From Pelagibius marinus (GTDB lineage Bacteria > Pseudomonadota > Alphaproteobacteria > Kiloniellales > Kiloniellaceae), in assembly GCF_014925385.1 (NCBI RefSeq), contig NZ_JACSDK010000003.1, positions 1 to 64,000 of the forward strand: DNA of 64,000 nucleotides, read 5' to 3'. Position numbers and translations under genes: made by a program. This document shows, in pieces, positions 984-28,961 of the stretch. Numbering within the stretch: position 1 is the stretch's first letter; each line of letters starts with the position of its first letter. The notes below the pieces were generated by a model. It made no database searches, was not told where the DNA came from, and worked only from the letters and a program-made list of their open reading frames with translations.

Positions 984-997
984 TTGAGGCAGGTCAA
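984..997 (+). promoter_or_regulatory. FNR/FixK-like box upstream of the phasin gene
   Basis: TTGAGGCAGGTCAA, with intact TTGA-N6-TCAA half sites, matches 8 of 10 defined positions of TTGAT-N4-ATCAA. Its centre is 75 bases upstream of the phasin start codon, with a possible -10 (TAGCCT) near 1027-1032. Confidence 0.5.
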
Positions 998-1065
998 TGA
1001 CCTTGCCGCTGCAAAGGGGCATTGGTTAGCCTATCGGGGCGGACTCTGAAAATGGGAGTGATGCG

Positions 1066-1458
1066 ATGCCCTCAAAACCGAAAAAGCAGGGTGCGACCGG
1101 CGCCCCGGCAGCGGGGGGTCTCCCCACCCAGGGATTCGAGAGCCTGGTGGAGGCCAACGCCAAGGCCGCGGAGATCTGGCTGGAATCCTGGGCCAAGCTG
1201 GCCGGCGAGTCGGCTGGTTTCGTGACCCGGCGCTGGCAGCAGGACATGGACCTCATCGGGAAGATCTGCGCCTGCAAGTCCCCGGTGGAGCTGCTGCAGC
1301 TGCAGAGCGAGTTCATGCAGCGCGCCCTGGTCGACTACATGAAGGAAGCCACGCGGCTGGGCGATATGGAGACCGACGCGGGCGTCTCGGAACTCGAGGC
1401 CCTGGACGAAGGTGTGCGCGAGGCCGGCGAGAAGGCGAAGGGCGGGAAGAGCAAGTGA
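1066..1458 (+). CDS. Phasin family protein
   Basis: This 130-residue, largely helical protein has the phasin pattern: a basic Ala/Gly/Pro-rich N-terminus, a long amphipathic helix beginning near residue 25 (FESLVEANAKAAEIWLES), then the segment with KSPVELLQLQSEFMQRAL that is typical of phasin_2-type sequences. Phasins coat polyhydroxyalkanoate granules. The start at 1066 has GGGAG seven bases upstream; an ATG five bases earlier is in another frame. An FNR-like box lies upstream, which would fit carbon storage under oxygen limitation. The gene runs directly into the dehydrogenase gene, 10 bases downstream. Confidence 0.82.
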   Translation: MPSKPKKQGATGAPAAGGLPTQGFESLVEANAKAAEIWLESWAKLAGESAGFVTRRWQQDMDLIGKICACKSPVELLQLQSEFMQRALVDYMKEATRLGDMETDAGVSELEALDEGVREAGEKAKGGKSK

Positions 1459-1468
1459 GCTTGCCGGA

Positions 1469-2854
1469 ATGAATGATGCCGAAACCGGCGCCGCCTCCGG
1501 CCTGCCGGAGGAACTGGATCCGCTGCACATCACGCGCGAGCAGTTCAATCGCGCGCGCGCCCATCTGGAAGGCTTCAAGCGCGGCCTCATCGAGTTCTTC
1601 GAGGTGCCGAAGCGCACCATCTCGGTCTGCTTTCCGGTGGAGATGGAAGATGGCTCGGTGCGCACCTTCCACGGCTACCGTGTGCTGCACAGCCGCGTCC
1701 TGGGGCCGGGCAAGGGCGGTATCCGCTATCACCCGGAGCTGACCCGGCGCGAGGTCGCCGCCCTGGCCGCGCTCATGACCTGGAAGTGCGCCATCGTCAA
1801 GGTGCCCTTCGGCGGCGCGAAGGGCGGCGTGGTCTGCGACCCCAAGGATCTGACCGAGACCGACCTGCGCCGCATCACCCGCCGCTTCATCACCGAGCTG
1901 GGCGACAACATCGGCCCGCACATCGATATTCCGGCGCCGGATCTCTACACCAACGAGCAGACCATGGCGTGGATCTACGACACCTACGACATTCTGCACG
2001 CGGGCGGTAACAACCGCCCGGTGGTGACCGGCAAGCCGCTGGACCTGGGCGGCTCGGTGGGACGGCGCGAGGCGACGGGCTACGGCGCCTTCCTGGTGAC
2101 CGAGCGCTTTTTGGAACTGGCGCCGCCGCCGGGCTTCGGCGGCCTGAAGGGCGCGCGCGTCGCCATTCAGGGCTACGGCCAGGTCGGCGTCGCCGCGGCC
2201 GAGGCCTTCCGCGCGGCCGGCGCCAAGATCATCGCGCTCGGCGATTCCCAGGGGGCGATCCTCGAGGAGGAGGGGCTCGACCTGGAGGCCGTGGCCGCGC
2301 AGAAGCGCGAGCACGGCACCCTGGTCGGCCTGCCCGAGAGCCGCACCCTCACCAACGAGGACCTGCTGGCCCTCGACTGCGACATCCTCATCCCGGCGGC
2401 GCTGGGTAACCAGATCCACAGCGACAACGCCGGCGCCGTCCAGGCCAAGCTGATCGTGGAAGCCGCCAATGCGCCGGTCACGCCGGCGGCCGACGACATT
2501 CTCTCCGCCCGCGGCATCACCGTGCTGCCGGACATCCTGGTGAACGCCGGCGGCGTCACGGTCAGCTACTTCGAGTGGGTCCAGAACATCGAGAACGAAG
2601 AGTGGGACCTGGAGGAGGTCAACCGCCGCCTGCGCCAGCGTCTGCGCCGCGGCGTCGATGCGGTGGTGGAGTGCTGGCAGGAGATCAAGGGCGGGGCGAC
2701 CCTGCCGCTGGACAATCACCAGGAGCCGGCGGCGGAAAGCGGGGCCGCCGAGACCCCACGGGTCGAACGCAGGCCGGACCTGCGCACCGCGGCCCTGGTG
2801 GTGGCCGTGCGCCGGGTCGCGCGGGCGACCCTGAAGCGCGGCATCTGGCCGTAA
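1469..2854 (+). CDS. gdhA: Glu/Leu/Phe/Val dehydrogenase (glutamate dehydrogenase)
   Basis: This 461-residue enzyme should catalyse NAD(P)-dependent reversible oxidative deamination of glutamate or a related amino acid in the cytosol. The substrate domain shows GPGKGGIRYHP (residues 79-89) and MTWKCAIVKVPFGGAKGG (103-120), whose last lysine (K118) is the expected catalytic residue. The Rossmann domain shows GYGQVG at about 235-240. The C-terminus is longer than the usual 410-450 residues, with a Glu/Ala-rich insertion before a basic tail. I start it at ATG 1469, where the family homology begins. An upstream in-frame start would overlap the phasin gene. Substrate (Glu versus Leu/Phe) is not settled by eye. 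Confidence 0.85.
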   Translation: MNDAETGAASGLPEELDPLHITREQFNRARAHLEGFKRGLIEFFEVPKRTISVCFPVEMEDGSVRTFHGYRVLHSRVLGPGKGGIRYHPELTRREVAALAALMTWKCAIVKVPFGGAKGGVVCDPKDLTETDLRRITRRFITELGDNIGPHIDIPAPDLYTNEQTMAWIYDTYDILHAGGNNRPVVTGKPLDLGGSVGRREATGYGAFLVTERFLELAPPPGFGGLKGARVAIQGYGQVGVAAAEAFRAAGAKIIALGDSQGAILEEEGLDLEAVAAQKREHGTLVGLPESRTLTNEDLLALDCDILIPAALGNQIHSDNAGAVQAKLIVEAANAPVTPAADDILSARGITVLPDILVNAGGVTVSYFEWVQNIENEEWDLEEVNRRLRQRLRRGVDAVVECWQEIKGGATLPLDNHQEPAAESGAAETPRVERRPDLRTAALVVAVRRVARATLKRGIWP

Positions 2855-2857
2855 GCG

Positions 2858-4784: not shown

Positions 4785-5906
4785 TCAAGGCAGTTCTCGG
4801 CGGCGTTGCAGGAGGGCCTTGATGGCGCTGACCAACTGCAATTGCCCGGCCCAGCCGACGCCGCGCGGCGTGATGTGGGAAAAGCCGTCGATGAGGAAGA
4901 GCTCCGTTCCCGGCACCGCCCGGGCGAGGGCCTGGCTTTCGCTGTAGGGGATCAGCGGGTCGAGGCGGCCGTGGATCAGGATCAGGCGCCCGGCCAGGGG
5001 CGCGAGGTCGCGGCCTTTCAGGGAGAGGCCGCGCAGGCGCAGGGCGACGCTCTCCGGCAGCGCCTCCAGCAGCTCCGTTACGCGTGCAGGATCGTCATTT
5101 GTGATGAGCGCCAGCAGCGCACGGCCCTCGGCCCCCAGGTCCCGCGCCAGCGCGGCCACGTCCGGGTCGCAGCCGTGGAAACATTCGCGGCCGAGGGCTT
5201 CAAGCCGGCGGCGGTCTTCCGCATCGCTCAGCACCGCCGCGTTGCCGGCCAGGAAAATCCACTTGGCTGATTTCAAAGGATGGCCGCGCTGCCATTTGCG
5301 TTCGCCCGGTGCGCGGTAGCGCCCGGTGGTGGCGAAGGTGACCACGGCGGTCGTGTCGTGGTAGCCGCCGAGGCCGACCAGGAAGTCGGGGCGCGCGGCC
5401 GCGTTCAGTTCCAGGGTGGCGAGCATGGCGAGCCCGGCGGCGTAGGAGATGGCGACCACGCCGACGCCGCGGCGTGTGAGCTCCGGGCGCTGTTCCTTCA
5501 GGAAGCGCAGGGCATCGGCGATGGTCTGCTTGTCTTCCAGACGCACGCGCAGTTCGCGCGAGCCCGGCACCTCCGGCACCAGCACGGTGAAGCGCGCGCG
5601 GGCGAGGGAGCGCGCCAGTTCCACCACGCGGCTGTCGTTCTTTCCCGCCTCGGTGAAGCCCGGGACCAGCACCAGCGCGCCACCCCGTGTTTGACCCGGC
5701 TCGTAGAGGTCGGCAAGTCCGGGGCGGCCGGCCACGGCATAGTGCAGGGTGGAGCGCCGCGGCGCCGGTGTGACTTCTTTCAGCGTGGAAGGTCCGCCTG
5801 CGGCGTCGATGTCCTGCAGCAGGCGTGTCGCCTCCCAGCTCTCTGTGCTGACGCAGCCGCCCAGCAGCAGGCACAGCAGCCAGGGCAGGTGGCGGTGGCC
5901 GGTCAC
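4785..5906 (-). CDS. Lipoprotein with alpha/beta-hydrolase fold
   Basis: This 373-residue protein starts with a signal peptide ending in a lipobox, LLLGGCVS, so it should be a membrane-anchored lipoprotein. The body reads as an alpha/beta hydrolase: a strand ALVLVPGFTEAGKND, a nucleophile elbow AISYAAG that departs from the usual GxSxG by lacking the first glycine, a late acid in HGRLDPLIP and a C-terminal histidine in GFSHITP. Substrate is unknown; an esterase or peptidase is possible. Its ATG overlaps the stop of the AraC-type gene by four bases (ATGA), so the two are translationally coupled and probably share a function. Confidence 0.8.
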   Translation of the reverse strand: MTGHRHLPWLLCLLLGGCVSTESWEATRLLQDIDAAGGPSTLKEVTPAPRRSTLHYAVAGRPGLADLYEPGQTRGGALVLVPGFTEAGKNDSRVVELARSLARARFTVLVPEVPGSRELRVRLEDKQTIADALRFLKEQRPELTRRGVGVVAISYAAGLAMLATLELNAAARPDFLVGLGGYHDTTAVVTFATTGRYRAPGERKWQRGHPLKSAKWIFLAGNAAVLSDAEDRRRLEALGRECFHGCDPDVAALARDLGAEGRALLALITNDDPARVTELLEALPESVALRLRGLSLKGRDLAPLAGRLILIHGRLDPLIPYSESQALARAVPGTELFLIDGFSHITPRGVGWAGQLQLVSAIKALLQRRRELP

Positions 5907-6847
5907 GGCCAGGCGGCGAAGGATGTGTCGGTCTCGGTCTTCTGCTGCGAGACGCTGTGACGGAACTTGCCGGGCGGCAGGCCGGCATGGCGCTGGAAGA
6001 AGCGGTTGAAGTAGGCGGCGTCCTTGAAGCCCAGCATGTAGGCCACCTCGGCGACCTGCAGGCTGGAGCCGGTGAGCAGCGTCTTCGCCTCGGCCATCTG
6101 GCGCCGGTGGATGTGGGCCAGCGGCGTGCGCCCGGTGGCGCGCTGCACCGCTGTGTTGAGGCGGTCCTTGGAGACGCCCATCTGGCCGGCGTACTGCTGC
6201 ACCGTCCAGTGGTCGCGCAGGTGCAGGTCGACCAGCGACATGAAGTTGTGGACGATGTTGCGGGGCAGGGCCCTGGGGCTGGAGATCTCCGGGCGCGACA
6301 GCCGCCAGAACTCGATCAGCAGCAGCGAGACGCGGTACTGCACCACGGTTTGGGCGGCGGGGCCGTTCTCGAACAGCTCCTGCTCGATGGTGGCGATCAT
6401 CTCGGCCAGCTTGGCGAGGCTCGCCGGCTCCGGGTTGCGCACGATGGCCGGGAAGCCGATGACCTCTCGGATGTGGCTGCCCAGCGAGCCCGCGGGGATC
6501 GAGGAGCCGAGCCGGGCGTCGGGAATGCTCAAGACCAGGCCGCGGGTGCCGGCCTCCAGGCGCAGGCTGCGCGACTTGCCGTGAGGCAGCCAGCAGAAGC
6601 CGGGGCCTTCGAGGGCATTCTCGCCGTCCTCCGAGGTCAGCAGCCCGGCGCCGACCTGCAGCAGGAAGAGGTGCGAGCGCCCGCCGCGCAGCACGTATTC
6701 GCCGCGCGTCAGCGCGCTCTTGATGGTGCGCGCCTGGATGTGCTCCGGGGTGGACTCCCTCGGGCCGTCTCTGGGGGCTTCGTTGGGGGGGGCGCCCGGG
6801 GTCTCCGCGGGTTTGCCGCCGGTTTCCCGGCTTTGGAGGGTGGACAT
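5903..6847 (-). CDS. AraC family transcriptional regulator
   Basis: This 314-residue protein has an N-terminal cupin-like ligand domain (roughly 45-190) and a C-terminal AraC/XylS DNA-binding domain with two helix-turn-helix units (YAGQMGVSKDRLN and QVAEVAYMLGFKDAAYFNRF). I prefer ATG 6847 because GGAAG sits six bases upstream of it, whereas it is too close to the ATG at 6853. It is divergent from the broken livK/livF gene and the aldehyde dehydrogenase operon, so it is a candidate activator for that operon as well as for its own coupled lipoprotein gene. The effector is unknown. Confidence 0.85.
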   Translation of the reverse strand: MSTLQSRETGGKPAETPGAPPNEAPRDGPRESTPEHIQARTIKSALTRGEYVLRGGRSHLFLLQVGAGLLTSEDGENALEGPGFCWLPHGKSRSLRLEAGTRGLVLSIPDARLGSSIPAGSLGSHIREVIGFPAIVRNPEPASLAKLAEMIATIEQELFENGPAAQTVVQYRVSLLLIEFWRLSRPEISSPRALPRNIVHNFMSLVDLHLRDHWTVQQYAGQMGVSKDRLNTAVQRATGRTPLAHIHRRQMAEAKTLLTGSSLQVAEVAYMLGFKDAAYFNRFFQRHAGLPPGKFRHSVSQQKTETDTSFAAWP

Positions 6848-6916
6848 CGGCATCTTCCGGGCCGCTTTCCCGTTACTGGAGACAGCCCTGAAGGGCCGCA
6901 GGCTTACGTCAAATGT

Positions 6917-6937
6917 ACAATTTTCCCTGTAAATTGT
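6917..6937. promoter_or_regulatory. Inverted repeat ACAATTT-N7-AAATTGT
   Basis: Perfect seven-base arms (6917-6923 and 6931-6937) sit in the divergent region between the AraC gene and the catabolic operon, inside an A+T-rich patch unusual for this G+C-rich window. It is a likely operator. AraC proteins more often bind direct repeats, so another regulator is possible. Confidence 0.45.
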
Positions 6938-7059
6938 CTATTCTCGCCAGGGCGTTCCCTCCCTAGGCTCCGGAAAGCGGTCCCGCCTGCAGGCGGGCCG
7001 ACAAGAAGGGTCCGTGTCTCCGATCGTCGGCGGCAACGGCCACGACCGGGAGGAAATGG

Positions 7060-7558
7060 ATGTTCACGACGCAACGCAGGGGCGTACTGCGCCTCTTCGG
7101 CCTGACGGCGGGCCATACCGCCGCCGCACTGTCGCTGGGACTGCCCGCCGGCGCCCGGGCGGAGTCCGTCCAGATCGGCGGCGCCGTCTCCAAGACCGGC
7201 CCGAACGCCGCCGGTGCCGGCACGTCGCCACCATGTCCGGCGGCGAGCAGCAGATGGTCGCCATCGGCCGGGCGCTGATGTCCCAGCCCGACATGCTGCT
7301 GCTCGACGAGCCCAGCCTGGGCCTGGCGCCGATCACGCTGGGCGAACTCTTCGACGCCCTGGCCAAGATGCGCGAGACCGGCGCCGGCCTGCTGCTGGTC
7401 GAGCAGAATGTGAAGGCCAGCCTCGCCTGGCGGAGCGGGGCTACCTCATGGAGGCCGGCCGCATCGTCGGCGAGGACTCGGCGGCGAAGCTTCAGAAGGA
7501 CGAAACCGTGCAACGTGCCTTCCTGGGCGTCGCCGCCCCGGAAAGGCATCCCCTCTAG
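7060..7558 (+). pseudogene. livK'-'livF deletion scar (broken branched-chain-type ABC transporter)
   Basis: The first 50 or so codons encode a Tat-type signal (RRGVLRLFG) and the start of a mature LivK-like binding protein (SVQIGGAVSKTGPNAAGAG). Around 7205-7222 the sequence jumps to the signature half of a LivF ATPase: MSGGEQQMVAIGRALM, then MLLLDEPSLGLAPI (Walker B). The reading frame also changes at the junction. Near 7425-7428 one C appears to be missing (ctcgcctgg for expected ctcgccctgg). After it, the LivF end (AERGYLMEAGRIVGEDSA) continues in another frame to the stop at 7558. Thus livK's body, livH, livM, livG and half of livF have gone. The remnant precedes the dehydrogenase by 15 bases. 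Confidence 0.85.
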
Positions 7559-7573
7559 CGGAGAAGTGACAAG

Positions 7574-9025
7574 ATGGATCTCGTAGGACTTCTGATCGAT
7601 GGTGAAAGCGTCGGGGCGACCGGCGATGCGACTTTCGAGCGGGTCAACCCCATAACCGGCGACGTCGCCACCACGGCGGCGGCGGCCAGCGTCGAGGACG
7701 CCCGCAAGGCGGCCGACGCCGCGGCCAAGGCCTTCCCGGAATGGGCCGAGACCGCGCCGGGCCAGCGCCGCAAGCTGCTGATCGCCGCGGCCGAGGCGCT
7801 GCGCGACCGCTCCAAGGACATCGTCGCGGCCATGGCCGAGGAGATCGGCGCCACCGAGGGCTGGGCCATGTTCAACATCGGCCTGGCCGCCGACATGCTG
7901 CTGGAGGCCTCGGCGCTGACCACGCAGATCAACGGCGAGATCATTCCCTCCAACCGCCCGGGCAGCCTGGCCATGGCGGTGCGTCAGCCGGTCGGCGTGG
8001 TACTCTCCATGGCGCCCTGGAACGCGCCCATCATTCTCGGCGTGCGTTCCATCGCCACGCCGCTGGCCTGCGGCAATACGGTGGTCATGAAGACTTCGGA
8101 GATCTGTCCGCACACCCACCGCCTGATCCTGGAAGCGGTGCAGGCGGCGGGCTTGCCTACCGGCGTGCTCAACGCCATCTCCAACGCCCCCGACGACGCG
8201 CCGGAGATCGTCGAGGCGCTGATCGCCCACCCGGCGGTGCGCCGCATCAACTTCACCGGCTCGACCCGCGTCGGTCGCGTCATTGCCGAGACGGCGGGGC
8301 GCTACCTGAAGCCGGTGCTGCTGGAACTGGGCGGCAAGGCGCCCATGGTGGTGTTGGACGACGCCGACCTGGACGCGGCAGTCGCCGCGGCAGCCTTCGG
8401 GGCCTACATGAATCAGGGCCAGATCTGCATGTCGACCGAGCGCCTGGTGGTCGACGAAAAGGTCGCCGACGCCTTCGTCGAGAAGATGACCGCCAAGGTG
8501 AAGACCCTGAAGGCCGGTGACCCGCGCAAGGGCAAGACGCCGCTGGGCTCCGTGGTCGACCGGCGCGCGACCCAGCGCATCGAGGGCCTGGTCGCCGACG
8601 CGGTCGACAAGGGCGCGGTGCTGGCCGCCGGCGGCGCGGCCGAGGGTACCATCATGCAGGCGACCTTGCTGGACCGGGTAACGCCCTCCATGCGCATCTA
8701 CAACGAAGAAAGCTTCGGCCCGGTGGTCAGCGTGATCCGCGTCGGCAGCCTGGACGAGGCTGTGCGCGTAGCTAATGACACCGAATATGGCCTCTCCGCC
8801 GCCGTCTTCGGCCAAGATGTGAACCGGGCGCTTTCGGTGGCCCGGCGCATCGAGTCCGGCATCTGCCACGTCAACGGGCCGACGGTCCACGACGAGGCGC
8901 AGATGCCCTTCGGCGGGGTCAAGGAGTCCGGCTACGGCCGCTTCGGCGGCAAGGCCGGCATTGACGAATTCACCGAACTCCGGTGGATCACCATCCAGGA
9001 CGGACCGCTGCACTATCCGATCTGA
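7574..9025 (+). CDS. Aldehyde dehydrogenase (aromatic aldehyde type)
   Basis: This 483-residue NAD(P)-dependent aldehyde dehydrogenase has the general base E251 in LELGGKAP and the catalytic C285 in GQICMS, with the coenzyme loop FTGSTRVG. Its central part (GVVLSMAPWNAPIILGVRSI) resembles the vanillin/salicylaldehyde dehydrogenase branch, which suggests an aromatic substrate. It stands between the liv scar and the TRAP transporter genes and upstream of a benzoylformate-decarboxylase-like enzyme. I infer that it oxidises the aldehyde made by that decarboxylase to the acid. The start codon ATG 7574 fits the family N-terminus. Confidence 0.87.
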   Translation: MDLVGLLIDGESVGATGDATFERVNPITGDVATTAAAASVEDARKAADAAAKAFPEWAETAPGQRRKLLIAAAEALRDRSKDIVAAMAEEIGATEGWAMFNIGLAADMLLEASALTTQINGEIIPSNRPGSLAMAVRQPVGVVLSMAPWNAPIILGVRSIATPLACGNTVVMKTSEICPHTHRLILEAVQAAGLPTGVLNAISNAPDDAPEIVEALIAHPAVRRINFTGSTRVGRVIAETAGRYLKPVLLELGGKAPMVVLDDADLDAAVAAAAFGAYMNQGQICMSTERLVVDEKVADAFVEKMTAKVKTLKAGDPRKGKTPLGSVVDRRATQRIEGLVADAVDKGAVLAAGGAAEGTIMQATLLDRVTPSMRIYNEESFGPVVSVIRVGSLDEAVRVANDTEYGLSAAVFGQDVNRALSVARRIESGICHVNGPTVHDEAQMPFGGVKESGYGRFGGKAGIDEFTELRWITIQDGPLHYPI

Positions 9026-9086
9026 GGTGTCGTCCGTTCGGACCCTGGCCAGGACGGCAATCTAATAGTTGGACGACAATAAAAAT

Positions 9087-9105
9087 TGGGCGGCGAGAGC
9101 GCCCA
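9087..9105 (+). other. Hairpin in the dctP leader
   Basis: TGGGCG (9087-9092) and CGCCCA (9100-9105) can pair around a seven-base loop in the leader of dctP. No T-run follows, so it is not a terminator; it may stabilise or pace the transporter mRNA after the dehydrogenase cistron. Confidence 0.3.
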
Positions 9106-9150
9106 GGCCGTAAAATAAGCCAAACAAAGAACGTAAAGGGAGGAAACCCA

Positions 9151-10197
9151 ATGAAACCGTTGCATCTTCTGAAGGCCGCCGCGTTAGGCGCCGTGCTGGC
9201 CGCCGCGGCCGGCTCCAGCGCCGTGGCGCAGGAATACACCTTCAAGTTTCACCATTTTCTGGGCGCCAAGTCGCCGGCCAACACGAAGATGCTGGAGCCC
9301 TGGGCCCGCCAGGTGGAGGAAAACTCCGGCGGCCGCGTGAAGATCGAGATCTTCCCGTCGATGACGCTGGGCGGCCGCCCGCCGGAACTGATCCAGCAGG
9401 CGCGTGACGGCGTGGTCGACCTGATCTGGGCGGTCAACGGCTACACCCCGGGCCTCTTCCCGCGCACCGAGGTCTTCGAACTGCCTTTCGTTTACGTGAA
9501 CAATATCAAGGCCACGAACCTGGCCATGTACGACATGTTCGAGAGCGACCTGAAGCAGGAGTACAAGGGCCTGGAGGTCATGTTCCTGCATGTTCATGCC
9601 GGGCAGGCCTTCCACATGCGCGACAAGCCGGTCCACACGCCGGCCGATGTCGAAGGCCTGAAGCTGCGCATCCCGACACGCACCGGTGCCTGGGTTATCG
9701 AGGCCCTGGGCGCGGCGCCGACGGCCATGCCGGTGCCTGAACTGCCGCAGGCCCTGCAGAAGGGCGTCGTCGACGGCGCGCTGATCCCCTGGGAGATCAT
9801 CCCGCCGCTGAAGATCCAGGAGCAGACCAAGTACCAGATCGAGGGCTTCAACGAGACCCGCTTCGGCACCACGACCTTCCAGGTGTCCATGAACAAGGCG
9901 CGCTGGGACGGCCTGCCCGCGGATATCCAGAAGGCCTTCCGCGACGCCTCGGGCCGCGACTGGTGGGGCAAGGTCGGCGAGATCTGGCGCGCTTCCGACG
10001 ACTTCGGCATCAAGGTCGCCACCGACGCGGGCAACGAGCACATCGTCCTGACCAAGGAGCAGACCGAGGCTTTCCGCGAGAAGCTGGAGCCGGTGGTGCA
10101 GCGCTGGATCAAGGAAGTCTCGCCGCAGGGCATCGGCGGCGCCCGCCTGGTCGAACAAGCGCGTGACCTGATCGCCAAGAACGGCGGCGGCAACTGA
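9151..10197 (+). CDS. dctP: TRAP transporter substrate-binding protein (DctP family)
   Basis: This 348-residue periplasmic receptor has a cleavable signal peptide (about residues 1-26, cut after SSAVAQ) and a DctP fold. FEL PFVY and the segment GLKLRIPTRTGAWVIEALGA (around 170-190) contain the arginine that usually binds the ligand carboxylate. It delivers an organic acid to DctQ/DctM. The start is fixed by GGGAGG upstream of ATG 9151. The next gene begins within its stop codon. Given the neighbouring ThDP decarboxylase, an aryl 2-oxoacid or hydroxyacid ligand is plausible but not shown. Confidence 0.88.
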   Translation: MKPLHLLKAAALGAVLAAAAGSSAVAQEYTFKFHHFLGAKSPANTKMLEPWARQVEENSGGRVKIEIFPSMTLGGRPPELIQQARDGVVDLIWAVNGYTPGLFPRTEVFELPFVYVNNIKATNLAMYDMFESDLKQEYKGLEVMFLHVHAGQAFHMRDKPVHTPADVEGLKLRIPTRTGAWVIEALGAAPTAMPVPELPQALQKGVVDGALIPWEIIPPLKIQEQTKYQIEGFNETRFGTTTFQVSMNKARWDGLPADIQKAFRDASGRDWWGKVGEIWRASDDFGIKVATDAGNEHIVLTKEQTEAFREKLEPVVQRWIKEVSPQGIGGARLVEQARDLIAKNGGGN

Positions 10198-10733
10198 TGA
10201 CGGCTTCGGGCCAAGAGCAGCGGGCGGGGCTTTCGGGCCTCGCCCGCGCCGCCATTACCGGCTGGGCGCTGCTCGGCGGCCTGGTGCTGGCCGCCGTGGT
10301 CCTGATCAACGTGCTCTCGGTGATCGGCGGTATCGTGTGGGAGCCCTTCCCCGGTGACTTCGAGATGACCGAGGTCGGCGTCGCCGTTGCGGCCTTCTCC
10401 TTCCTGCCCTACTGCCAGTTGACCGGCGCCAACGTGACGGCCGACATCTTCACTTCCAAGGCTTCGCCACGCTGGACCGGCATCTTCGCCCTGCTGGCCT
10501 CGCTGGTGGCCCTGGGCTTCAGCCTGCTGCTGCTGTGGCGCATGTACTTCGGCCTGCTGGACCAGAAGGCCTACGGCTACACCACGACGATCCTGCAGTT
10601 TCCGCAGTGGATCGGCTTCATTCCGATCCTCATCTCGCTTGCCCTCCTGGCCGTTGCCGCCCTCATCACCCTGGGCGAGGCCGCGCGGCAGATCGCCCAT
10701 CCCAGTGTCCCGCAGACCTCTGCAGAAGCATAA
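10197..10733 (+). CDS. dctQ: TRAP transporter small permease (DctQ family)
   Basis: This 178-residue inner-membrane protein has four predicted transmembrane helices (about 15-37, 55-75, 98-120, 138-160), the DctQ topology. It shares one base with the dctP stop codon (TGATG), indicating coupling. With DctM it forms the Na+-driven transport complex, in which DctQ is the structural partner of the large subunit. Order dctP-dctQ-dctM is the usual one. Confidence 0.87.
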   Translation: MTASGQEQRAGLSGLARAAITGWALLGGLVLAAVVLINVLSVIGGIVWEPFPGDFEMTEVGVAVAAFSFLPYCQLTGANVTADIFTSKASPRWTGIFALLASLVALGFSLLLLWRMYFGLLDQKAYGYTTTILQFPQWIGFIPILISLALLAVAALITLGEAARQIAHPSVPQTSAEA

Positions 10734-10751
10734 TCGGCGAAAGCGTAGTTC

Positions 10752-12110: not shown

Positions 12111-12126
12111 CGAGGAGGCGGCGCCC

Positions 12127-13833: not shown

Positions 13834-13846
13834 GACGCCCTGGTGC

Positions 13847-17688: not shown

Positions 17689-17698
17689 TCAACCTCAT
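17685..17698 (+). promoter_or_regulatory. FNR-like box upstream of the RaiA-CSD gene
   Basis: TTGATCAACCTCAT (8 of 10 matches) overlaps the stop of the preceding gene and is centred 84 bases before the RaiA-CSD start. A possible -10, GATTAT, lies at 17725-17730. This is the weakest of the group because the right half site is CTCAT. Confidence 0.35.
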
Positions 17699-17775: not shown

Positions 17776-18345
17776 ATGCAGACACCCCTCGAGATCACCT
17801 TCCGCAACATGGACCACTCGGACGCCGTCGAGGCCAGAATCCGGGAGAAAGTGGGCAAGCTGGAGCAGGTCTACGACCGTATCACCGCCTGTCGGGTGAG
17901 GGTCGAAGCGATCAACCGACAACACACCAAGGGCAATCTCTTCCAGGTCAACATCGAACTGTCCGTGCCCGGCAAGCAGGTCATGGTCGGTCGCAACCCC
18001 GGCAAGAACCATGCTCACGAGGATGTCTACGTGGCCGTGCGCGACGCCTTTAATGCGGCGCGCCGCCGCCTTGAGGACCATTCCCGGCGCAAGTCCGGCA
18101 AGGTGAAGACTCATGAGGTGCCGCCGCACGGCAAGGTGGCCCGGTTGTTCCCTTACGAAGGTTACGGGTTCATCGAGACGCCTGACGGCCGCGAGATCTA
18201 CTTCCATGAGAACAGCCTGGTGGATAGCGACTTCGCCAAGCTGGAGGAGGGCCAGGAAGTACGCTACGTGGCTGCCGAGAAAGAAAGCGAAAAGGGGCCG
18301 CAGGCCAGCACCGTGAAGCTGATCGGCAAGCACCACCTCGCTTAG
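17776..18345 (+). CDS. Ribosome hibernation factor RaiA/HPF fused to a cold-shock domain
   Basis: This 189-residue protein has an N-terminal RaiA/HPF domain (1-105, TPLEITFRNMDHSDAVEARI ... DVYVAVRDAFNAARRRLED) and a C-terminal cold-shock domain (about 118-186) with GYGFIETPDGREIYFHENSL, a variant of the RNP1/RNP2 nucleic-acid motifs. RaiA-type proteins inactivate idle ribosomes; the CSD in place of a normal HPF tail may bind mRNA or rRNA. AAGGTAAGGGAGG precedes the start. It is in the cluster of stress genes and has a possible FNR-like box upstream. HPF paralogues occur in other hypoxia regulons. Confidence 0.88.
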   Translation: MQTPLEITFRNMDHSDAVEARIREKVGKLEQVYDRITACRVRVEAINRQHTKGNLFQVNIELSVPGKQVMVGRNPGKNHAHEDVYVAVRDAFNAARRRLEDHSRRKSGKVKTHEVPPHGKVARLFPYEGYGFIETPDGREIYFHENSLVDSDFAKLEEGQEVRYVAAEKESEKGPQASTVKLIGKHHLA

Positions 18346-19272: not shown

Positions 19273-21712
19273 TCCTGCCTCCTTCCTTGCCGCCGTCTTC
19301 GTCATGAGCGCCGAAACGGCGGCGCGCCTCGGCGAAGGCGACGAGGCGATCCTCGACCAGGCGGTTGACCGAGTCAGTCGGGAAGCGGCCCTCGGCATCG
19401 CGCTCGCCGGCGGGCCGCCCGGTCAGCAGCTCGATGCCCTGGGCGATGGTCTCCACCGGGTAGATGTGGAACTTTCCCGCGGCCACAGCATCGATGACAT
19501 CCTGGCGCAGCATCAGGTGCATGACGTTGCTCGCCGGGATCAGGACGCCCTGGTCGCCGGTCAACCCGCGCTCCCTGCAGATGTCGAAGAAGCCCTCGAT
19601 CTTCTCGTTGACTCCGCCGATGGCCTGCACATGGCCGTTCTGGTTCACCGAGCCGGTGACCGCCAGGTTCTGCTTCAGCGGCACCTCGGAGAGCGCCGAG
19701 AGCAGCGCGTAGAGCTCGGCCGAGGAGGCACTGTCACCCTCGACACCGCCATAGGACTGCTCGAAGACCAGGCTGGCTGCCAATGACAGTGGCTTATCGC
19801 CGGCGAAGTGGCTGGCCAGATAGGAGGAGAGAATAAGCACGCCCTTGGAGTGAATCGGGCCGCCCAGTTCCACCTCGCGCTCGATGTCGATGACCTTGCC
19901 GGCGCCCAGGCGCACGCTTGCGGTGATGCGGCTGGGCCGCCCGAAAGCGAAGTGGCCGAGCTGCAGCACGCTGAGGCCATTGACCTGGCCCACGGTTGTG
20001 CCTTCGGTGTCCAGCAGCACGATGCCGCGCTGGATGGCCTCGTAGCTGCGCTCGCGCAGGCGGTCGGCGCGGCGGATCTGCGCGTCGATCGCCTGCTGCA
20101 CGTGCGCGGCGTCGGTCACTTCGGCGCCGGCCTTGCCGGCGAAGAAATCCGCCTCGCGGGTCAGGTCGCAGATGGCGCGCAGGTTGATCGACAGCTTCTC
20201 GGCATCCTCGGCCAGGCGGGCGCTGTGCTCCATGACGCGGGCCACGGCGGCGCGGTTCAGCGGGCGCAGCTTTGACTGCTTCACCATGGTCGCCAGTTGG
20301 CGTGCGAAGAGCGCCTCGCCGGAACCGCTACGATCCATCGAGCCGCCGAAGTCGGCGGCCACCTTGAACAACGTTGCGAACTCCGGGTCGTACTCGCCCA
20401 GCAGGTAGTAGTACAGCGGATCGCCGCAGAGGATCACCTTGGCCTGCAGTGGGACGTCGCCGGGTTCCAGCGATACCGTGCTGATGAGGCTCATCATCTG
20501 TCCCGCGGACTCGATACGGATCGTGCTTGCCTTCAAGGCTCGCTTGAGCGCGTCCCAGGCGAGGGGCTGGCTCAGCACCTTCAGGACGTCGAGGATCAGG
20601 TAGCCGCCGTTGGCCCGGTGCAGCGCGCCACCCTTGATCAGGGTGAAGTCGGTGATCAGTGCGCCCATCTCCGAGATGTGCTCCACCCGGCCGATGAGGT
20701 TCGCCAGGGTGGGGTTGTTCTCGAAGATCACCGGGGCGCCTTCGCTTTCCTCGCCGCTGACGACGACGTTCACCGCATAGCGCTTGAAGCCGTTGAGGTG
20801 GCCGGGGCCGGGGGCCGGACCGGCGGCTGTCTCCCCGGGGCCCTGCTGCTGCGCGGCGATTTCCAGCTGCAGCAGGGAGTGCACGTTGTCCAGCAGGTCC
20901 TCACGGACCTCCTCCAGATGTTCGCCGATGCCCTCGATCTCGCCGAAGCGTTCGTTCAGCTTGTCGATCGGCTGGTCGATGGTCTGGGCGGTGACCTCGC
21001 GGTTCAACTCGCGCAAGGCGTCGCGGTGCTCCTTGGCCCAGCCGGGAATCTGTTTGACGATCTCTTCCAGCTCGGCCTGCAGCTTCTCGATCTCTTCCTG
21101 GATCCGCTCGCGTTCCTCGGCAGGCAGGGCGTTGAAGGCCTTGGGCTCCATTACCGCGCCGTCCTCCATGGGGGCAAAGGCGAAGCCCATCGGGGTGCGC
21201 ACCAGGGCGATGTTCTTTTCCTCGGCCCTCTCGCGCAGCACCTGGAAGGCTTTCTCCTGCCGCTCGCGCGCGCTTTCCTCAAGGGCCTGGCGGCGGTTGC
21301 GGTAGTCCTCGCTCTCGAAGGCCGCGGGCACGGCGGCGCGCAGTTCGTCGACCAGCTGCTTCATGGCGCTCTGCAGCTCACGTCCCAGACCGCTGGGCAG
21401 AGAGAGCGCCTTGGGCTGGTGCGGCGTGATGAAATTGTTGAGGTAGACCCAGTCCGGCGGCACCGGCTCCTCGGCCGCCTTTTGTTTCAGGATGCGCAGC
21501 ACGGTGGTGTGCTTGCCGGTGCCCGACGGGCCGAGGACGAAGAGATTGTAGCCCTCCTGCTCGATCTCGGCGGCGAAATGAATCGCTTCCAGAGCGCGGT
21601 CCTGGCCGATGACCTCCGCCAGGTCCTCCAGCTCAGACGTGGTCTCGAAATCGAGACCGTCGAGCTTGCAGTGCGTATAGAGCTTTTCCGGCGCGAGTGG
21701 TGAAGGTGCCAT
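19259..21712 (-). CDS. LonB-type ATP-dependent protease (COG1067 family)
   Basis: This 817-residue AAA+ protease lacks the Lon N-domain. The Walker A motif GPSGTGKHT is at 61-69, followed by a long coiled-coil insertion (about 115-285), the rest of the AAA domain (GGYLILDVLKVLSQPLAW) and a C-terminal Lon protease domain. The catalytic dyad is S661 in EGDSAS and K704 in GVNEKIEG; their spacing of 43 residues equals S679-K722 in E. coli Lon. It should degrade damaged or regulatory proteins in the cytosol. ATG 21712 is preferred over a GTG ten codons earlier. It is the first gene of a two-gene operon with the stress protein and faces acsA. Confidence 0.87.
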   Translation of the reverse strand: MAPSPLAPEKLYTHCKLDGLDFETTSELEDLAEVIGQDRALEAIHFAAEIEQEGYNLFVLGPSGTGKHTTVLRILKQKAAEEPVPPDWVYLNNFITPHQPKALSLPSGLGRELQSAMKQLVDELRAAVPAAFESEDYRNRRQALEESARERQEKAFQVLRERAEEKNIALVRTPMGFAFAPMEDGAVMEPKAFNALPAEERERIQEEIEKLQAELEEIVKQIPGWAKEHRDALRELNREVTAQTIDQPIDKLNERFGEIEGIGEHLEEVREDLLDNVHSLLQLEIAAQQQGPGETAAGPAPGPGHLNGFKRYAVNVVVSGEESEGAPVIFENNPTLANLIGRVEHISEMGALITDFTLIKGGALHRANGGYLILDVLKVLSQPLAWDALKRALKASTIRIESAGQMMSLISTVSLEPGDVPLQAKVILCGDPLYYYLLGEYDPEFATLFKVAADFGGSMDRSGSGEALFARQLATMVKQSKLRPLNRAAVARVMEHSARLAEDAEKLSINLRAICDLTREADFFAGKAGAEVTDAAHVQQAIDAQIRRADRLRERSYEAIQRGIVLLDTEGTTVGQVNGLSVLQLGHFAFGRPSRITASVRLGAGKVIDIEREVELGGPIHSKGVLILSSYLASHFAGDKPLSLAASLVFEQSYGGVEGDSASSAELYALLSALSEVPLKQNLAVTGSVNQNGHVQAIGGVNEKIEGFFDICRERGLTGDQGVLIPASNVMHLMLRQDVIDAVAAGKFHIYPVETIAQGIELLTGRPAGERDAEGRFPTDSVNRLVEDRLVAFAEARRRFGAHDEDGGKEGGRNAGN

Positions 21713-21787: not shown

Positions 21788-21801
21788 TTGACCAGGATCA
21801 A
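21788..21801 (-). promoter_or_regulatory. FNR-like box of the lonB-usp operon
   Basis: TTGACCAGGATCAA (9 of 10 matches, palindromic in its TTGA/TCAA halves) is centred 82 bases upstream of the LonB start. It is the left of two boxes in the divergent lonB/acsA region. Confidence 0.55.
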
Positions 21802-21836
21802 AGCCTATCGCCTGGGCGGCTGCCGCGGTAGGGGGC

Positions 21837-21850
21837 TTGATTTAGGTCAT
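21837..21850 (+). promoter_or_regulatory. FNR-like box of the acsA operon
   Basis: TTGATTTAGGTCAT (8 of 10 matches) is centred 87 bases upstream of acsA. Together with the box at 21788 it gives one site per divergent promoter. Confidence 0.5.
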
Positions 21851-21930: not shown

Positions 21931-23687
<1,757 letters not shown>

Positions 23688-23691
<4 letters not shown>

Positions 23692-25682
23692 CCAAGCCCC
23701 GCCTCAGCCGCGAGCATGCCCTTCACCTGCTGAAGCAGATGCTGCGCATCCGCCGCTTCGAGGAGAAGTGCGCCGAGCTCTACACCCAGGAAAAGATCCG
23801 CGGCTTCCTGCACCTCTACATCGGCGAGGAGGCCAACGCCGTGGGCGTCATGCAGGCCCTGCAGCCGGACGACGCCATCGTCGCCACCTACCGCGAACAC
23901 GGCCATGCCCTGGCGCGCGGCCTTTCCATGAACGGCGTCATGGCGGAGATGTACGGCAAGCAGGAGGGCTGCAGCCACGGGCGCGGCGGCTCCATGCACA
24001 TCTTCGACAAGGCGACCAACTTCTACGGCGGCAACGCCATCGTCGGCGGCGGCCTGCCGCTGGCGGTGGGCCTGGCGCTGGCCGACAAGCTGCAGGGGCG
24101 CGATCGCGTCACCGCCTGTTTCTTCGGCGAGGGAGCGGTGGCCGAGGGCGAGTTCCACGAGAGCCTTAACCTGGCGGCGCTCTGGGGCCTGCCGGTGCTC
24201 TTCGTCTGCGAGAACAACCTCTATGCCATGGGCTCGGCCCTCGACCTGACGGAGTCCGAGACCGACATTCACAAGAAGGCCGAGAGCTACCGCATCGCCT
24301 CCCGCGTGGTGGACGGCATGGACGTGGTAGCGGTGGAGGCCGCCGCCCAGGCCGCCGTCGAGGCGGCGCGCCGCGACGGCAAGCCGCAATTCCTGGAATG
24401 CCGCACCTACCGCTTCCGCGCCCATTCCATGTTCGACGCCCAGCTCTACCGCGAGAAGGGCGAGGTGGAGGAATGGAAGGGCAAGGGCCCGATCCTGCGC
24501 TACCAGACCTGGCTGCGCGAGACCGGCATCGCCCATGAGAGCGACTTCGAGGCCATGGAGGCGGCGGTGGCCGAGGAGGTCCAGGCTTCGGTCGACTTCG
24601 CCGAGGCGGGCAGCTGGGAGCCGGTCGAGGACCTGCTGCGCCATACCTATGCCGAGGAGGGCGCGGAGGTGGCCGTCACCGTCGGCGCCGCGCCGCCGCC
24701 GGAGATGACCTACCGCGAGGCCATGCGCGAAGCCCTGCGCGAGGCCCTGACCCAGGACGAGCGGGTCTTTCTCATGGGCGAGGACGTCGGCCACTATGGC
24801 GGCTGCTATGCGGTCTCCATGGGGCTGCTGCAGGACTTCGGGCCGGCGCGCATCCGCGACACGCCGCTGTCGGAGTCCGGCTTTACCGGCGCCGGCGTCG
24901 GCGCGGCGGTGAACGGCCTGCGGCCCATCGTCGAGGTCATGACCGTGAATTTCAGCCTGCTGGCCCTCGACCAGATCCTCAATTCGGCGGCGACCCTGCG
25001 CCACATGTCCGGCGGCCAGTGCGGCGTGCCGCTGGTGATCCGCATGGCGACCGGCGCCGGCAAGCAGCTCGCCGCCCAGCACTCGCACAGCCTGGAGGGC
25101 TGGTTCGCCCATATCCCCGGCATCAAGATCCTGGCCCCGGCGACGGTGGCCGACGCAAGGGCCATGCTGGCCCCGGCGCTGGCCGACCCGGACCCGGTGC
25201 TGATTTTCGAGAACGTCATGCTCTACAACCGCAAGGCCGCCGAGGAGGCGGAGCTGGCGCCCGCGCCGGAGAGCGTGTGGAAGGCGGCGGTGCGCCGCCC
25301 CGGCAAGGACGTGACGCTGATTTCCTATGGCGGCGCCCTGTGGCGCGCCCTGGCCGCGGCGGACATCCTGGCGGGCGAGGGCATCGAGGCGGAGGTCATC
25401 GATCTGCGCTCCCTGCGTCCCCTGGATGACGAGACCATCGCCGCTTCCCTCGCCAGAACCCGGCGCGCGGTCATCGTCGACGACGGCTGGCGCAGCGGCA
25501 GCCTGGCGGCGGAGGTCTCCGCGCGCCTCACCGAGTGCTGCTTCTGGTCGCTGGACGCGCCGCTGGAGCGGGTCTGCGGCGCCGAGGTGCCGATCCCCTA
25601 TCCGCAGCACCTGGAGCAGGCCTCGATCCCGCAGCCGCCGCAGATCGTCGCCGCGGCCAAGCGCGCCCTGAACAAGACATGA
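23688..25682 (+). CDS. Fused alpha-beta E1 component of a pyruvate/2-oxoacid dehydrogenase
   Basis: This 664-residue protein fuses the two halves of an E1 heterotetramer. Residues 1-320 are the alpha type, with the ThDP motif [19 protein letters not shown] ... CENNLYAM (about 146-183). Residues 340-664 are the beta type ([52 protein letters not shown]). It decarboxylates a 2-oxoacid and acylates the E2 lipoyl arm. Resemblance to PDH and acetoin dehydrogenase E1 is about equal by eye; neighbours (acsA, ACP) favour acetyl chemistry. It overlaps acsA and E2 by four bases each (ATGA). No E3 gene is in the window. Confidence 0.85.
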
Positions 25683-26863
25683 GCGACTTCCTCATGCCCT
25701 CGCTGGGCTCCGACATGGAGGCCGGCACCCTGGTCGAGTGGCTGAAGCAGCCGGGCGAGGCGGTGCGGCGCGGCGACATCGTCGCCGTGGTCGAGACCCA
25801 GAAGGGCGCCATCGAGATCGAGTGCTTCCAGGACGGCGTGCTGGAGGAATATCTGGTCGACATCGGCCAGACCGTGCCGGTCGGCACGCCGCTGGCGCGC
25901 ATCCGCGGGGCGGGCGAAGCCGCAGCGGCGCCGGAAGCGCCGAAGGCCGCACCGGAAGCGGCTGCCGAAGAGCCGCCGACGCCCCTGCCGCTGCCGGTCG
26001 CCCCGCCGCCCGGGGCGCCCAAAGTGGCGCCGGCAGGCGGTGTCAGGGCCTCTCCGGCGGCACGGCAGGCGGCGGCGGAACGCGGCCTCGACCTCGCCGC
26101 CCTCAAGGGCAGCGGCCCCGGCGGCGCGGTGGTGCTGGCCGACGTGGAAAGCGCACCGGCAGCCAAGCCAAAACCCAAGAGTAAGGCCGGCGGCCTCGAC
26201 CTGGACGAGATGCGCAAGGCCATTGCCGCGGCCATGAGCCGCTCCAAACGCGAGATCCCGCACTATTACCTCTCCCACGACGTGGACCTGGCGGCGGCCA
26301 GTGCCTGGCTGGAGCAGACCAACGCGGCGCGCGAGCCGGCCCAGCGCCTGCTCATCGGCGCGCTGTTCCTGAAAGCCGTGGCGCTGGCGCTGAAGAAGCA
26401 CAAGGCGTTCAACGGCTTCTACCGGGAGGACGGCTTCGCGCCCAGCGACGCCATCCACATCGGCACCGCGGTCTCGATCCGCGGCGGCGGCCTGGTGGCG
26501 CCGGCGATCCACGACACCGACCAGCTGGACCTCGACAGCATCATGGCGAAGATGCGCGACCTTGTGGCGCGGGTGCGCGTCGGCACGCTGCGCTCTTCGG
26601 AACTGGCGGACCCCACGGTGACGGTCTCCAGCCTGGGCGAGCGCGGCGTCGAGGGCATGTATTCCATCATCTACCCGCCGCAGGTCGCCATCCTGGGCAT
26701 CGGCAAGGTGGTCGAGCGGCCCCGCGTGGTTGAGGGTAGGATCGAGGCGCGGCCGCTGGTTACGATGACGCTGGCCGGCGATCACCGGGTGAGCGACGGC
26801 CACCGCGGCGCCCTTTTGCTGAACGACATCGACCGACTGCTGCAGGAGCCCGAGGCCCTATGA
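25679..26863 (+). CDS. Dihydrolipoamide acyltransferase (E2) of a 2-oxoacid dehydrogenase
   Basis: This 394-residue protein has a single lipoyl domain (1-75) with K42 in [12 protein letters not shown] as the attachment site, a Pro/Ala/Glu-rich hinge (80-115), a peripheral-subunit-binding domain (about 120-156, [18 protein letters not shown]) and a catalytic domain (175-394) ending with the active-site motif DHRVSDG (H369). It moves the acyl group from E1 to CoA. The catalytic domain is slightly short. ATG 25679 lies in the four-base overlap with E1, and the next start overlaps its own stop by four bases. Confidence 0.87.
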
Positions 26864-27108
26864 CACCTGATGAAGCGCGCGCCGTCTTTTTCGAGGAACT
26901 CGGCAACATCGCCCCCGAGTGGGACCCGGCGGAGATCGACCCCGGCGAGGACATCCGCGAGGCCATGGACATCGATTCCATGGATGTCCTGAACCTGGTC
27001 ATCGCGCTCCACAAACGCACCGGCATCGACATCCCGGAATCGGACTACGCCAAGCTGATCACCATCGACGGCGCCGTCGCCTATTTGAGCGCCAAGAGTG
27101 GCGGGTAG
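26860..27108 (+). CDS. Acyl carrier protein
   Basis: This 82-residue acidic protein contains the phosphopantetheine site S40 in AMDIDSMDVLNLVIAL. The helix pattern and length are those of a free acyl carrier protein, but it differs from housekeeping AcpP, whose site reads DSL. It begins within the E2 stop codon (ATGA), which suggests it receives or supplies the acyl group handled by the upstream AcsA/E1/E2 enzymes, or serves a specialised lipid. Such a pairing with an acyl-CoA-producing complex is uncommon. Confidence 0.85.
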   Translation: MTPDEARAVFFEELGNIAPEWDPAEIDPGEDIREAMDIDSMDVLNLVIALHKRTGIDIPESDYAKLITIDGAVAYLSAKSGG

Positions 27109-27754: not shown

Positions 27755-28119
27755 CCCTCCAGGCGGCGGTTGCGGTCCTGCCACAATTCAAACAGCGCCA
27801 GCACGGCGACTGCGGCGCCGAGCACGAAGTGCGCGAGGCGCAGCGTGCCGCCGTAGCCGAAGACCAGGGGCGAGACCACGACCCAGAGGCCGCAGGCAAG
27901 CTCCAGCACCTCTTCCCAACGCTGCAGCGACATGATCTCCAGCAGCGCCAGCATGGTGATGAGAACGCCGGCCAGACCGGCAGAGATGGAAGCCGCCGCG
28001 GCCAAGTCCCCGGCGGTCAGGGCGGGGGAGAGGACGATGAGCACGCCGCAGCCGGCGGAGCAGAAATCCTCCCAGCGGCGATGCTCTGTGAACCAGCCGT
28101 GTTTGACAGAGGTATTCAT
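27751..28119 (-). CDS. SPW repeat membrane protein
   Basis: This 122-residue inner-membrane protein contains two internal repeats of a helix pair, each with an SP-motif (LSPALTAG at about 32-39 and VSPLVFGYGG at about 85-94), as in the SPW family; the tryptophan of the motif is replaced. Four transmembrane segments are expected. The start is fixed by GGAAGGAGG upstream of ATG 28119. Function is unknown. It is divergent from the sulfur transporter genes. Confidence 0.75.
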   Translation of the reverse strand: MNTSVKHGWFTEHRRWEDFCSAGCGVLIVLSPALTAGDLAAAASISAGLAGVLITMLALLEIMSLQRWEEVLELACGLWVVVSPLVFGYGGTLRLAHFVLGAAVAVLALFELWQDRNRRLEG

Positions 28120-28330
28120 GACAAACCTCCTTCCAAGCTGCTTTGACGGCAACGCGAGCGCCCGAAAGGAGATGATGCCGGCGGTGTCGAGCCGTCCCCC
28201 GATCGGGCGCTCTCACACCTACTTTATGTGGAATTCTACGCCTCTCCGCGGCCGGCAGCAAGCGAATCGCGCGCATCGGGACGCATGGAAAACCCCGGGA
28301 ATCCTGGATTTTTTCCAGATCTGACGTCTT

Positions 28331-28344
28331 TTGATCCAGATCAT
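28331..28344 (+). promoter_or_regulatory. FNR-like box upstream of the YeeE/YedE genes
   Basis: TTGATCCAGATCAT matches 9 of 10 positions, centred 63 bases before the YeeE start. It abuts and slightly overlaps the inverted repeat at 28343-28366. Confidence 0.5.
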
Positions 28345-28366
28345 ATATGCACGATTATGAATATAT
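28343..28366 (+). promoter_or_regulatory. AT-rich inverted repeat, ArsR-type operator candidate
   Basis: Arms ATATATGCA (28343-28351) and TGAATATAT (28358-28366) match at 8 of 9 paired positions around a six-base spacer. It resembles operators of ArsR-type sulfide sensors such as BigR/YgaV/SqrR, which control YeeE/YedE-type genes in other Alphaproteobacteria. TATATT at 28362-28367 could serve as a -10. Confidence 0.45.
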
Positions 28367-28400
28367 TAGCCTCGGGACATCTGAGAGAGGAGATATCCCC

Positions 28401-28961
28401 ATGATCCTGCCTTGGCGCCTTGGAGGCCTCGCCCTCGGCCTCGTGTTCCTGGCCGCCGTGGTGCTGGTCAAGCCCATCGGCGTGTCGACCCAGTTCGTCA
28501 TCTTCGACGGCATCCTCTGGGATGCGGTCAATCCCGCGGTGGTCGTCGAGTCCCTCGACGCCAAGAGCGGCTATGCCAGCCCCAACGCCTATCTCGACAA
28601 GAGCGGCGGGGCCTACGCGAAGCACGTCGCCAACCCGCTGAACTACGGCTTCGTCTTCGTCCTCGCCATGATGGCCGGCGCGGCGCTCTCCGCGCTGCTG
28701 CGCGGCGGCGTGCCGAAAGCCGAGCGCGCCATGCCGCCGGTCTGGCGCGCCAACTTCGGCGCCTCGCCCATGAAACGCTACCTCGTCGCCTTCGTCTCCG
28801 GCTTCCTGGTGCTCTACGGCGCCCGCCTGGCCGGCGGCTGCACCAGCGGCCACATGATGAGCGGCATGATGCAGACGGCGGTCAGCGGCTACATCTTCGC
28901 CGCCGGCACTTTCCTCGCCGCCATTCCTCTGGCGCTCATCATGTTCCGCAGGGAGGGTTGA
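28401..28961 (+). CDS. YeeE/YedE sulfur transporter, N-terminal half
   Basis: This 186-residue membrane protein is one half of a thiosulfate/sulfur-compound transporter (TsuA-like). GGCTSGHMMSG (about residues 148-158) holds the conserved cysteine that relays the sulfur substrate. About five hydrophobic segments are present. Start ATG 28401 has GAGAGGAGAT upstream; a TTG/ATG further upstream lies in the operator. The partner gene follows after three bases. Confidence 0.85.
   Translation: MILPWRLGGLALGLVFLAAVVLVKPIGVSTQFVIFDGILWDAVNPAVVVESLDAKSGYASPNAYLDKSGGAYAKHVANPLNYGFVFVLAMMAGAALSALLRGGVPKAERAMPPVWRANFGASPMKRYLVAFVSGFLVLYGARLAGGCTSGHMMSGMMQTAVSGYIFAAGTFLAAIPLALIMFRREG

Follow-up and report, generated by a model that had tools for sequence, protein, structure and literature searches.

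Seven boxes and the genes behind them

We analysed a window of 64,000 nucleotides from Pelagibius marinus (contig NZ_JACSDK010000003.1, positions 1 to 64,000), the left part of which carries seven palindromic 14-mers, here called boxes, that resemble the targets of FNR-type regulators. The sites were located by direct reading and pattern search, and each was scored by its matches out of 10 to TTGAT-N4-ATCAA. An earlier note on this DNA had listed seven such sites with scores of 8, 8, 9, 8, 9, 8 and 9, and all of them are present at the positions claimed. Genes were called with a home-made codon-usage caller, so that start codons and the totals of intergenic bases given below are approximate; domains were assigned with Pfam and NCBIfam, which upheld the names previously given to the genes that follow the boxes (phasin, universal stress protein, phosphoribosyltransferase, RaiA-CSD, LonB, acsA and YeeE).

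The left most box, TTGAGGCAGGTCAA (984–997, forward strand, score 8), has its centre 75.5 bp from the ATG at 1066 of a phasin gene (PF09361; 1066–1458, forward) and is unchanged in the nearest relative, G057. We used this ATG, which has a GGAG upstream, whereas the gene caller had picked the GTG at 1147. The box TTGATGCAGGTCAT (14373–14386, reverse, score 8) is centred 80.5 bp from the start of a gene for a universal stress protein (USP), USP1 (PF00582; 13847–14299, reverse), and overlaps by 3–4 bases the stop of the preceding gene, which encodes a nicotinate phosphoribosyltransferase (NAPRT; 14383–15762, reverse) and lacks its own box in P. marinus. Farther right, TTGATCTGGATTAA (16909–16922, forward, score 9) is centred 71.5 bp from the ATG at 16987 of a gene for a phosphoribosyltransferase-domain protein (PRT; PF00156; 16987–17688, forward) and 47.5 bp from the start of a divergent Prim-Pol gene. 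The stop of the PRT gene is in turn overlapped, again by 3–4 bases, by TTGATCAACCTCAT (17685–17698, forward, score 8), centred 84.5 bp from the start of RaiA-CSD (17776–18345, forward), in which a RaiA/HPF-like domain (PF02482) is fused to a cold-shock domain (PF00313).

Two boxes share the divergent region between lonB and acsA, one for each direction, as the earlier note had it. The first, TTGATCCTGGTCAA (21788–21801, reverse, score 9), matches the full TTGAY-N4-RTCAA consensus, and its centre is 82.5 bp from the start of a LonB-like ATP-dependent protease (AAA_32, LonB LID and Lon_C domains; 19259–21712, reverse), downstream of which lies a second USP with a weak PF00582 match (18364–19221, reverse). 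The other, TTGATTTAGGTCAT (21837–21850, forward, score 8), is centred 87.5 bp from the TTG at 21931 that opens the acsA unit (21931–27108, forward), an overlapping chain of four genes encoding, in order, an acetate-CoA ligase, a fused E1 of a 2-oxoacid dehydrogenase, an E2 and a small phosphopantetheine carrier protein. The last box, TTGATCCAGATCAT (28331–28344, forward, score 9), has its centre 63.5 bp from the ATG at 28401 of the first of two YeeE/YedE-type sulphur transport proteins (PF04143; 28401–29576, forward). The centre-to-start distances thus run from 63.5 to 87.5 bp, in agreement with the 63–87 bases reported before. The statement that every box stands between genes holds for five of them, but not for those at 14373 and 17685, given their overlap with stop codons.

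Enrichment and conservation

The number of boxes in 1–28401 is far above what permuted motifs yield. We counted sites with a score of at least 8 in intergenic bases only, tolerating an overlap of up to 4 bases with a neighbouring gene, and used as controls 19 permuted palindromes of identical base composition. In 1–28401 there are seven boxes in 2,948 intergenic bp, against a control mean of 0.26 and a maximum of 2. The earlier note had found nothing as good to the right, and indeed the 3,262 intergenic bp of 28402–64000 (35.6 kb) contain no such box (control mean 1.00). In the 380 kb that follow on the contig there are 27 boxes in 78,491 intergenic bp (control mean 11.3, maximum 27), and fourteen 20-kb samples taken at fixed positions hold 9 in 42,261 intergenic bp (mean 5.2, maximum 11). 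Over a background of 660 kb from the same genome, the box rate is about eightfold below that of 1–28401; at the background rate, seven boxes have a nominal Poisson P of 4e-5, to be read as that of a region picked after looking. Across the whole window, sites with at most two mismatches number 23, compared with 6.07 (standard deviation 2.58) in shuffled sequence. A control with the reversed pattern (16 versus 95 sites) contains TAG, was judged biased and was not used.

A scan with a position weight matrix, a kind of test that the earlier note had proposed, likewise gave a higher density of boxes in this region than in the rest of the genome sampled. The matrix was built from 25 Rhodobacter sphaeroides FnrL sites supported by chromatin immunoprecipitation (ChIP; PMC2908626 Table 2), the three weakest of 28 being omitted. 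In the zone 45–130 bp upstream of starts, all seven window boxes exceed 10 bits, and the scores of six fall in the range spanned by those 25 ChIP sites; the same zone in 33 background stretches of 20 kb yields six sites in total and at most one per stretch. Chance clustering, tested with the permuted palindromes, the shuffles and the 33 background stretches, was rejected.

Five boxes could be compared with those of G057, the closest relative compared (LonB 90% identical). Their cores are identical at 48 of 50 positions and their spacers at 18 of 20, whereas the flanks agree at 384 of 508 (Fisher P = 2e-4, core versus flank). Both core changes move towards the consensus; the RaiA-CSD box is retained with a change in that direction, and the phasin box is retained too.

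We then asked whether orthologues in other genomes are preceded by a box, requiring, in the 200 bp before the start, a best score of at least 9 out of 10. For LonB, with the P. marinus locus excluded, this is so in 15 of the 25 loci of the order that had sufficient upstream DNA (from 26; controls mean 0.05, maximum 1), and just 12 of 77 more distant loci are boxed, so that the association is strongest inside the order. USP1 is preceded by a box in 3 of 5 loci (control mean 0), and its box has full-consensus counterparts in the two nearest relatives, G057 and G051. RaiA-CSD has one in 7 of 29 loci (control mean 0.11; the P. marinus locus is in this set at score 8), and in G051 the box before it scores 9. 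The figures for PRT are 3 of 10 (control mean 0; the P. marinus locus is in the set at score 9) and for NAPRT 4 of 11 (control mean 0.11). In four relatives NAPRT shares the box of a divergent lonB; these four NAPRT boxes and one of the USP1 boxes are those of lonB and are therefore not independent.

Promoter geometry, candidate regulators and competing explanations

We pooled the seven window boxes with 30 boxes found upstream of LonB in relatives, and in this set of 37 the −10-like hexamer TAnnnT stands 22 bp downstream in 9 cases, versus 17 of 1,443 over the other 39 offsets; P values drawn from such counts are optimistic because the pooled boxes are related sequences. An offset of 22 would place the box centres near −41.5, the class II spacing, and class II promoters with short leaders would account for the near-constant distance from box to start codon that the earlier note pointed out. 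In Dinoroseobacter shibae, according to the sections available of PMC5398030, FnrL sites lie 39.5–41.5 bp upstream of transcription starts. Among the window boxes, possible −10 elements were seen for the YeeE pair (TAGCCT at 28367–28372, offset 22) and for USP1 (TAGAGT at 14349–14344, offset 23).

The genome encodes a candidate regulator. On contig C9, at about 366 kb, lies a protein with an N-terminal CX2CX7C, a later CLLC and the recognition helix TTETVSR, the best PDB relatives of which are FNR and then FixK2, and a perfect box stands upstream of its gene. The gene caller began this gene inside the cysteine motif; the longer start is supported by matches that begin at residue 11–12 in many genomes. 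Judged by sequence, the protein is an FNR orthologue, having both the cysteines expected of it and an FNR-type helix, and we take its cysteine pattern to be that of the oxygen-labile 4Fe-4S FNR. C9 also encodes two more proteins of FNR type, which have E-x-x-S-R recognition helices and boxes upstream of their genes; one lies at 268 kb, adjoining a double major facilitator superfamily (MFS) gene, and the other at 337 kb, where genes for cytochrome c and cytochrome cd1 are located. In relatives, FNR-type genes occur near lonB: in G026, G027 and G028, of one genus (L061, L062 and L065), one without the N-terminal CX2CX7C lies about 6.4 kb from it, and in G051 (L305) one lies about 8 kb away. A rule by which lonB would lack a box wherever the genome lacks a close FNR orthologue was tried and failed, with exceptions both ways: the box-less lonB loci of G004, G025 and G017 have FNR relatives at 62–65% identity, and lonB of G035 is boxed with a best FNR match of only 45%.

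The predicted regulon extends beyond the window region, with good boxes elsewhere in the genome. The genes that follow them are hemN, those for a USP, a hemerythrin and another E1 dehydrogenase, and a cytochrome cd1 gene whose divergent neighbour encodes a large 4Fe-4S-domain protein; one more box is some 250 bp away from a COX1/ccoN-like gene. At C9 270790 (L096 12791) a full-consensus box, followed at 22 bp by TAGCGT, stands 77.5 bp upstream of a second gene for an E1 dehydrogenase, and on contig C17 at 131867 (L116) a perfect TTGAT-N4-ATCAA precedes a polyphosphate kinase gene by about 160 bp.

The enrichment, the conservation of the cores, the boxes before LonB orthologues, the −10-like spacing, and the FNR orthologue and further FNR-type proteins of the genome all support the FNR/FixK-type regulon suggested in the earlier note. 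We thus propose, with a probability of about 0.84, that the seven boxes are operators of a CRP/FNR-superfamily activator that controls a low-oxygen survival cluster, the genes of which are probably switched on together when oxygen is scarce; binding, activation (not repression), the oxygen signal and the role in survival are what we infer from the sequence. The likeliest activator would be the FNR orthologue of the genome itself, although the sites may also serve a DNR- or FixK-like protein. As oxygen falls, a dimer would bind each palindrome at about −41.5 and recruit RNA polymerase by class II activation, such that seven transcription units would come on together. Their predicted products would suit a slow or arrested life at low oxygen: USPs, a RaiA-CSD protein resembling ribosome-hibernation factors, proteolysis by LonB, a phosphoribosyltransferase, a phasin of polyhydroxyalkanoate granules, the activation of acetate and 2-oxoacids to acyl-CoA, and sulphur transport.

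Several observations weigh against this proposal. Of the 17 sites with at most two mismatches in 1–28401, 10 fall inside genes, and elsewhere in the genome sites of score 8 are only about twofold above permuted controls. Both would fit palindromes that cluster by chance, or a motif of CRP type that plays no part in FNR control, and yet the low counts of the permuted palindromes in the same intergenic bases, the conservation of the cores, the footprints at LonB and the signal at offset 22 make such an origin highly improbable. Other points bear on the individual boxes. A box of at least 9 is absent at 10 of the 25 LonB loci of the order, at 65 of the 77 distant ones and at 22 of the 29 RaiA-CSD loci, and phasin and acsA are comparable in one relative each and YeeE in none. 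The RaiA-CSD box is the lowest of the seven by matrix, at 11.7 bits versus a ChIP-site minimum of 14.05, a floor raised by the omission of the three weakest of the 28 sites. Among the window boxes, TAnnnT stands at offset 22 for YeeE alone and at 23 for USP1, while the others have poor hexamers and the best −10-like hexamer of phasin, TAGCCT, lies at 29 bp instead of 22. In a second set, of 22 box–gene pairs elsewhere in the genome, the peak of similarity to TATAAT at offset 22 is slight (1.95 versus 1.82 at 20), and TA occurs there in 4 of 22, one of these just upstream of a tRNA-like sequence. The list could hence be true in part, for example with LonB, USP1, YeeE and acsA as targets and RaiA-CSD or phasin as near-misses, or some boxes could be repressor sites, since the FnrL sites shown in Table 2 of PMC2908626 include those of repressed genes. 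We regard this as rather unlikely, as the phasin and RaiA-CSD boxes are both kept in G057, the latter shifting towards the consensus, and RaiA-CSD has a box of 9 in G051.

A different doubt concerns the identity of the regulator. As described in the available text of PMC2908626, FNR, FixK and DNR recognise very similar targets, so that the acting protein cannot be told from the sites alone. The boxes could be real operators of the CRP/FNR family while the main regulator is FixK-like, without the Fe-S cysteines, or DNR-like, the signal then being a relay or nitric oxide. The two additional FNR-type proteins at 268 and 337 kb on C9, with their upstream boxes, would be candidates; the FNR-type genes near lonB in G026, G027, G028 and G051 point in the same direction, and one USP family is assigned to DNR in the part of PMC2908626 at hand. 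In the P. marinus window cluster, however, an FNR-type regulator gene was sought and not found, and Table 1 of that paper assigns uspA and a hemN-type gene to FNR. On balance a FixK- or DNR-like main regulator seems unlikely to a similar degree, and we favour the FNR orthologue at 366 kb as the activator of the cluster.

The cluster in relatives and in comparison with known systems

The same cluster is carried by G057, with differences. A block of about 9 kb (4794–13849), containing genes for a hydrolase, an AraC regulator, an aldehyde dehydrogenase, a tripartite ATP-independent periplasmic (TRAP) transporter and a thiamine pyrophosphate-dependent enzyme, is missing at the corresponding place, so that it looks inserted into, or lost from, the box-bearing cluster; this block has no intergenic box of score 8. 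In G057 (L058 4621–5734 and L157) the phosphoribosyltransferase is a C-terminal remnant with a match of 53 residues, and the NAPRT region is about 225 bp shorter than that of the window. The YeeE pair is absent at the corresponding place together with its box. In G051, of the same genus as P. marinus, the divergent neighbour of LonB is NAPRT instead of acsA, and both intervening boxes are kept, the second of them about 410 bp from the called start of NAPRT. By synteny with G057, the right end of contig C2 (L308) should abut the left end of the window (1–972). C2 has two full-consensus boxes, one by a small protein and the other between genes with BON and CBS-MgtE orthologues in G057, and the cluster therefore probably continues leftwards past the window.

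LonB is patchy, with full-length matches in three of eight genomes of the genus. Of the named lonB loci we kept 80, of which 57 span at least 12 kb; the top three are from Chloroflexi, at 57–61% identity, in a set from which the relatives of P. marinus itself were possibly excluded. This pattern suggests horizontal spread. Among 44 plasmid LonB records, all are below 60% identity and none is a close relative. Co-location with lonB in the 80 loci is weak: NAPRT and RaiA-CSD occur in 4 each, phasin in 0 and an acsA-like gene in 9, a figure that means little because the count for an ATP-binding cassette (ABC) transporter gene, taken from the window's right part, was 10. Full-consensus sites around these lonB genes number 14 in Alphaproteobacteria and 10 in Beta- and Gammaproteobacteria (permuted controls mean 0.7 in both), and 3 in Chloroflexi (mean 0.1). 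For the RaiA-CSD fusion, near-full-length matches of at least 50% identity were seen in 18 loci of the order, others matching the RaiA part only. It is tempting, though we put it forward tentatively, to regard LonB, RaiA-CSD and the USPs as a widespread, horizontally shuffled dormancy module for low oxygen that would be unified by the FNR box and not by gene order. Genes might then come and go, as the TRAP block, the YeeE pair, PRT and the exchange of acsA for NAPRT may illustrate, and the units that remain or come in would tend to carry boxes.

With conserved sites, a motif call made by eye becomes a regulon prediction that can be tested, and a LonB-type protease and RaiA-CSD join the genes that are likely targets of FNR-type control in this group. 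Should the prediction hold, low oxygen would couple transcription directly to proteolysis and ribosome hibernation, which would bear on the survival of anoxia by denitrifying or facultative bacteria.

Comparable systems are known in part. The R. sphaeroides FnrL regulon and the predicted alphaproteobacterial FNR, FixK and DNR regulons of PMC2908626 share with the present one, in the portions available, the TTGAY-N4-RTCAA sites, an FNR gene that is itself preceded by a box, and uspA and a hemN-type gene as targets; the entries seen of its Table 1 do not include LonB, RaiA-CSD, NAPRT, PRT or acsA. The FnrL of D. shibae likewise has several USP and cold-shock genes among its targets, but no LonB or RaiA target is named in the accessible text of PMC5398030, where 'lon' turned up only as part of a strain genotype and inside unrelated words. 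In Herbaspirillum seropedicae, a phasin (by Fnr3) and two USPs (by Fnr1 and Fnr3) are directly activated; unlike here, three Fnr proteins are at work, and a comparable gene cluster is not described in the excerpts of PMC5934665. The lxa locus of Burkholderia cenocepacia (BCAM0275–BCAM0323; PMC6127331, PMC3759415, PMC9104464), as far as those excerpts describe it, is a USP-rich low-oxygen gene cluster for which a Crp-Fnr regulator has been proposed; it includes a BON-domain protein, as contig C2 does here, and is absent from some B. cenocepacia strains. No LonB, RaiA or NAPRT is named for lxa in the same excerpts, the two clusters being compared by description and not by sequence. A NAPRT is also listed in a fitness table for anoxic survival of B. 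cenocepacia H111 in the portion seen of PMC9104464. In the literature searched, as far as its available text goes, nothing was found that names LonB or RaiA-CSD as a target of FNR. An FNR-type regulon with USPs and a phasin is already known from these systems, and LonB and RaiA-CSD are the fresher members.

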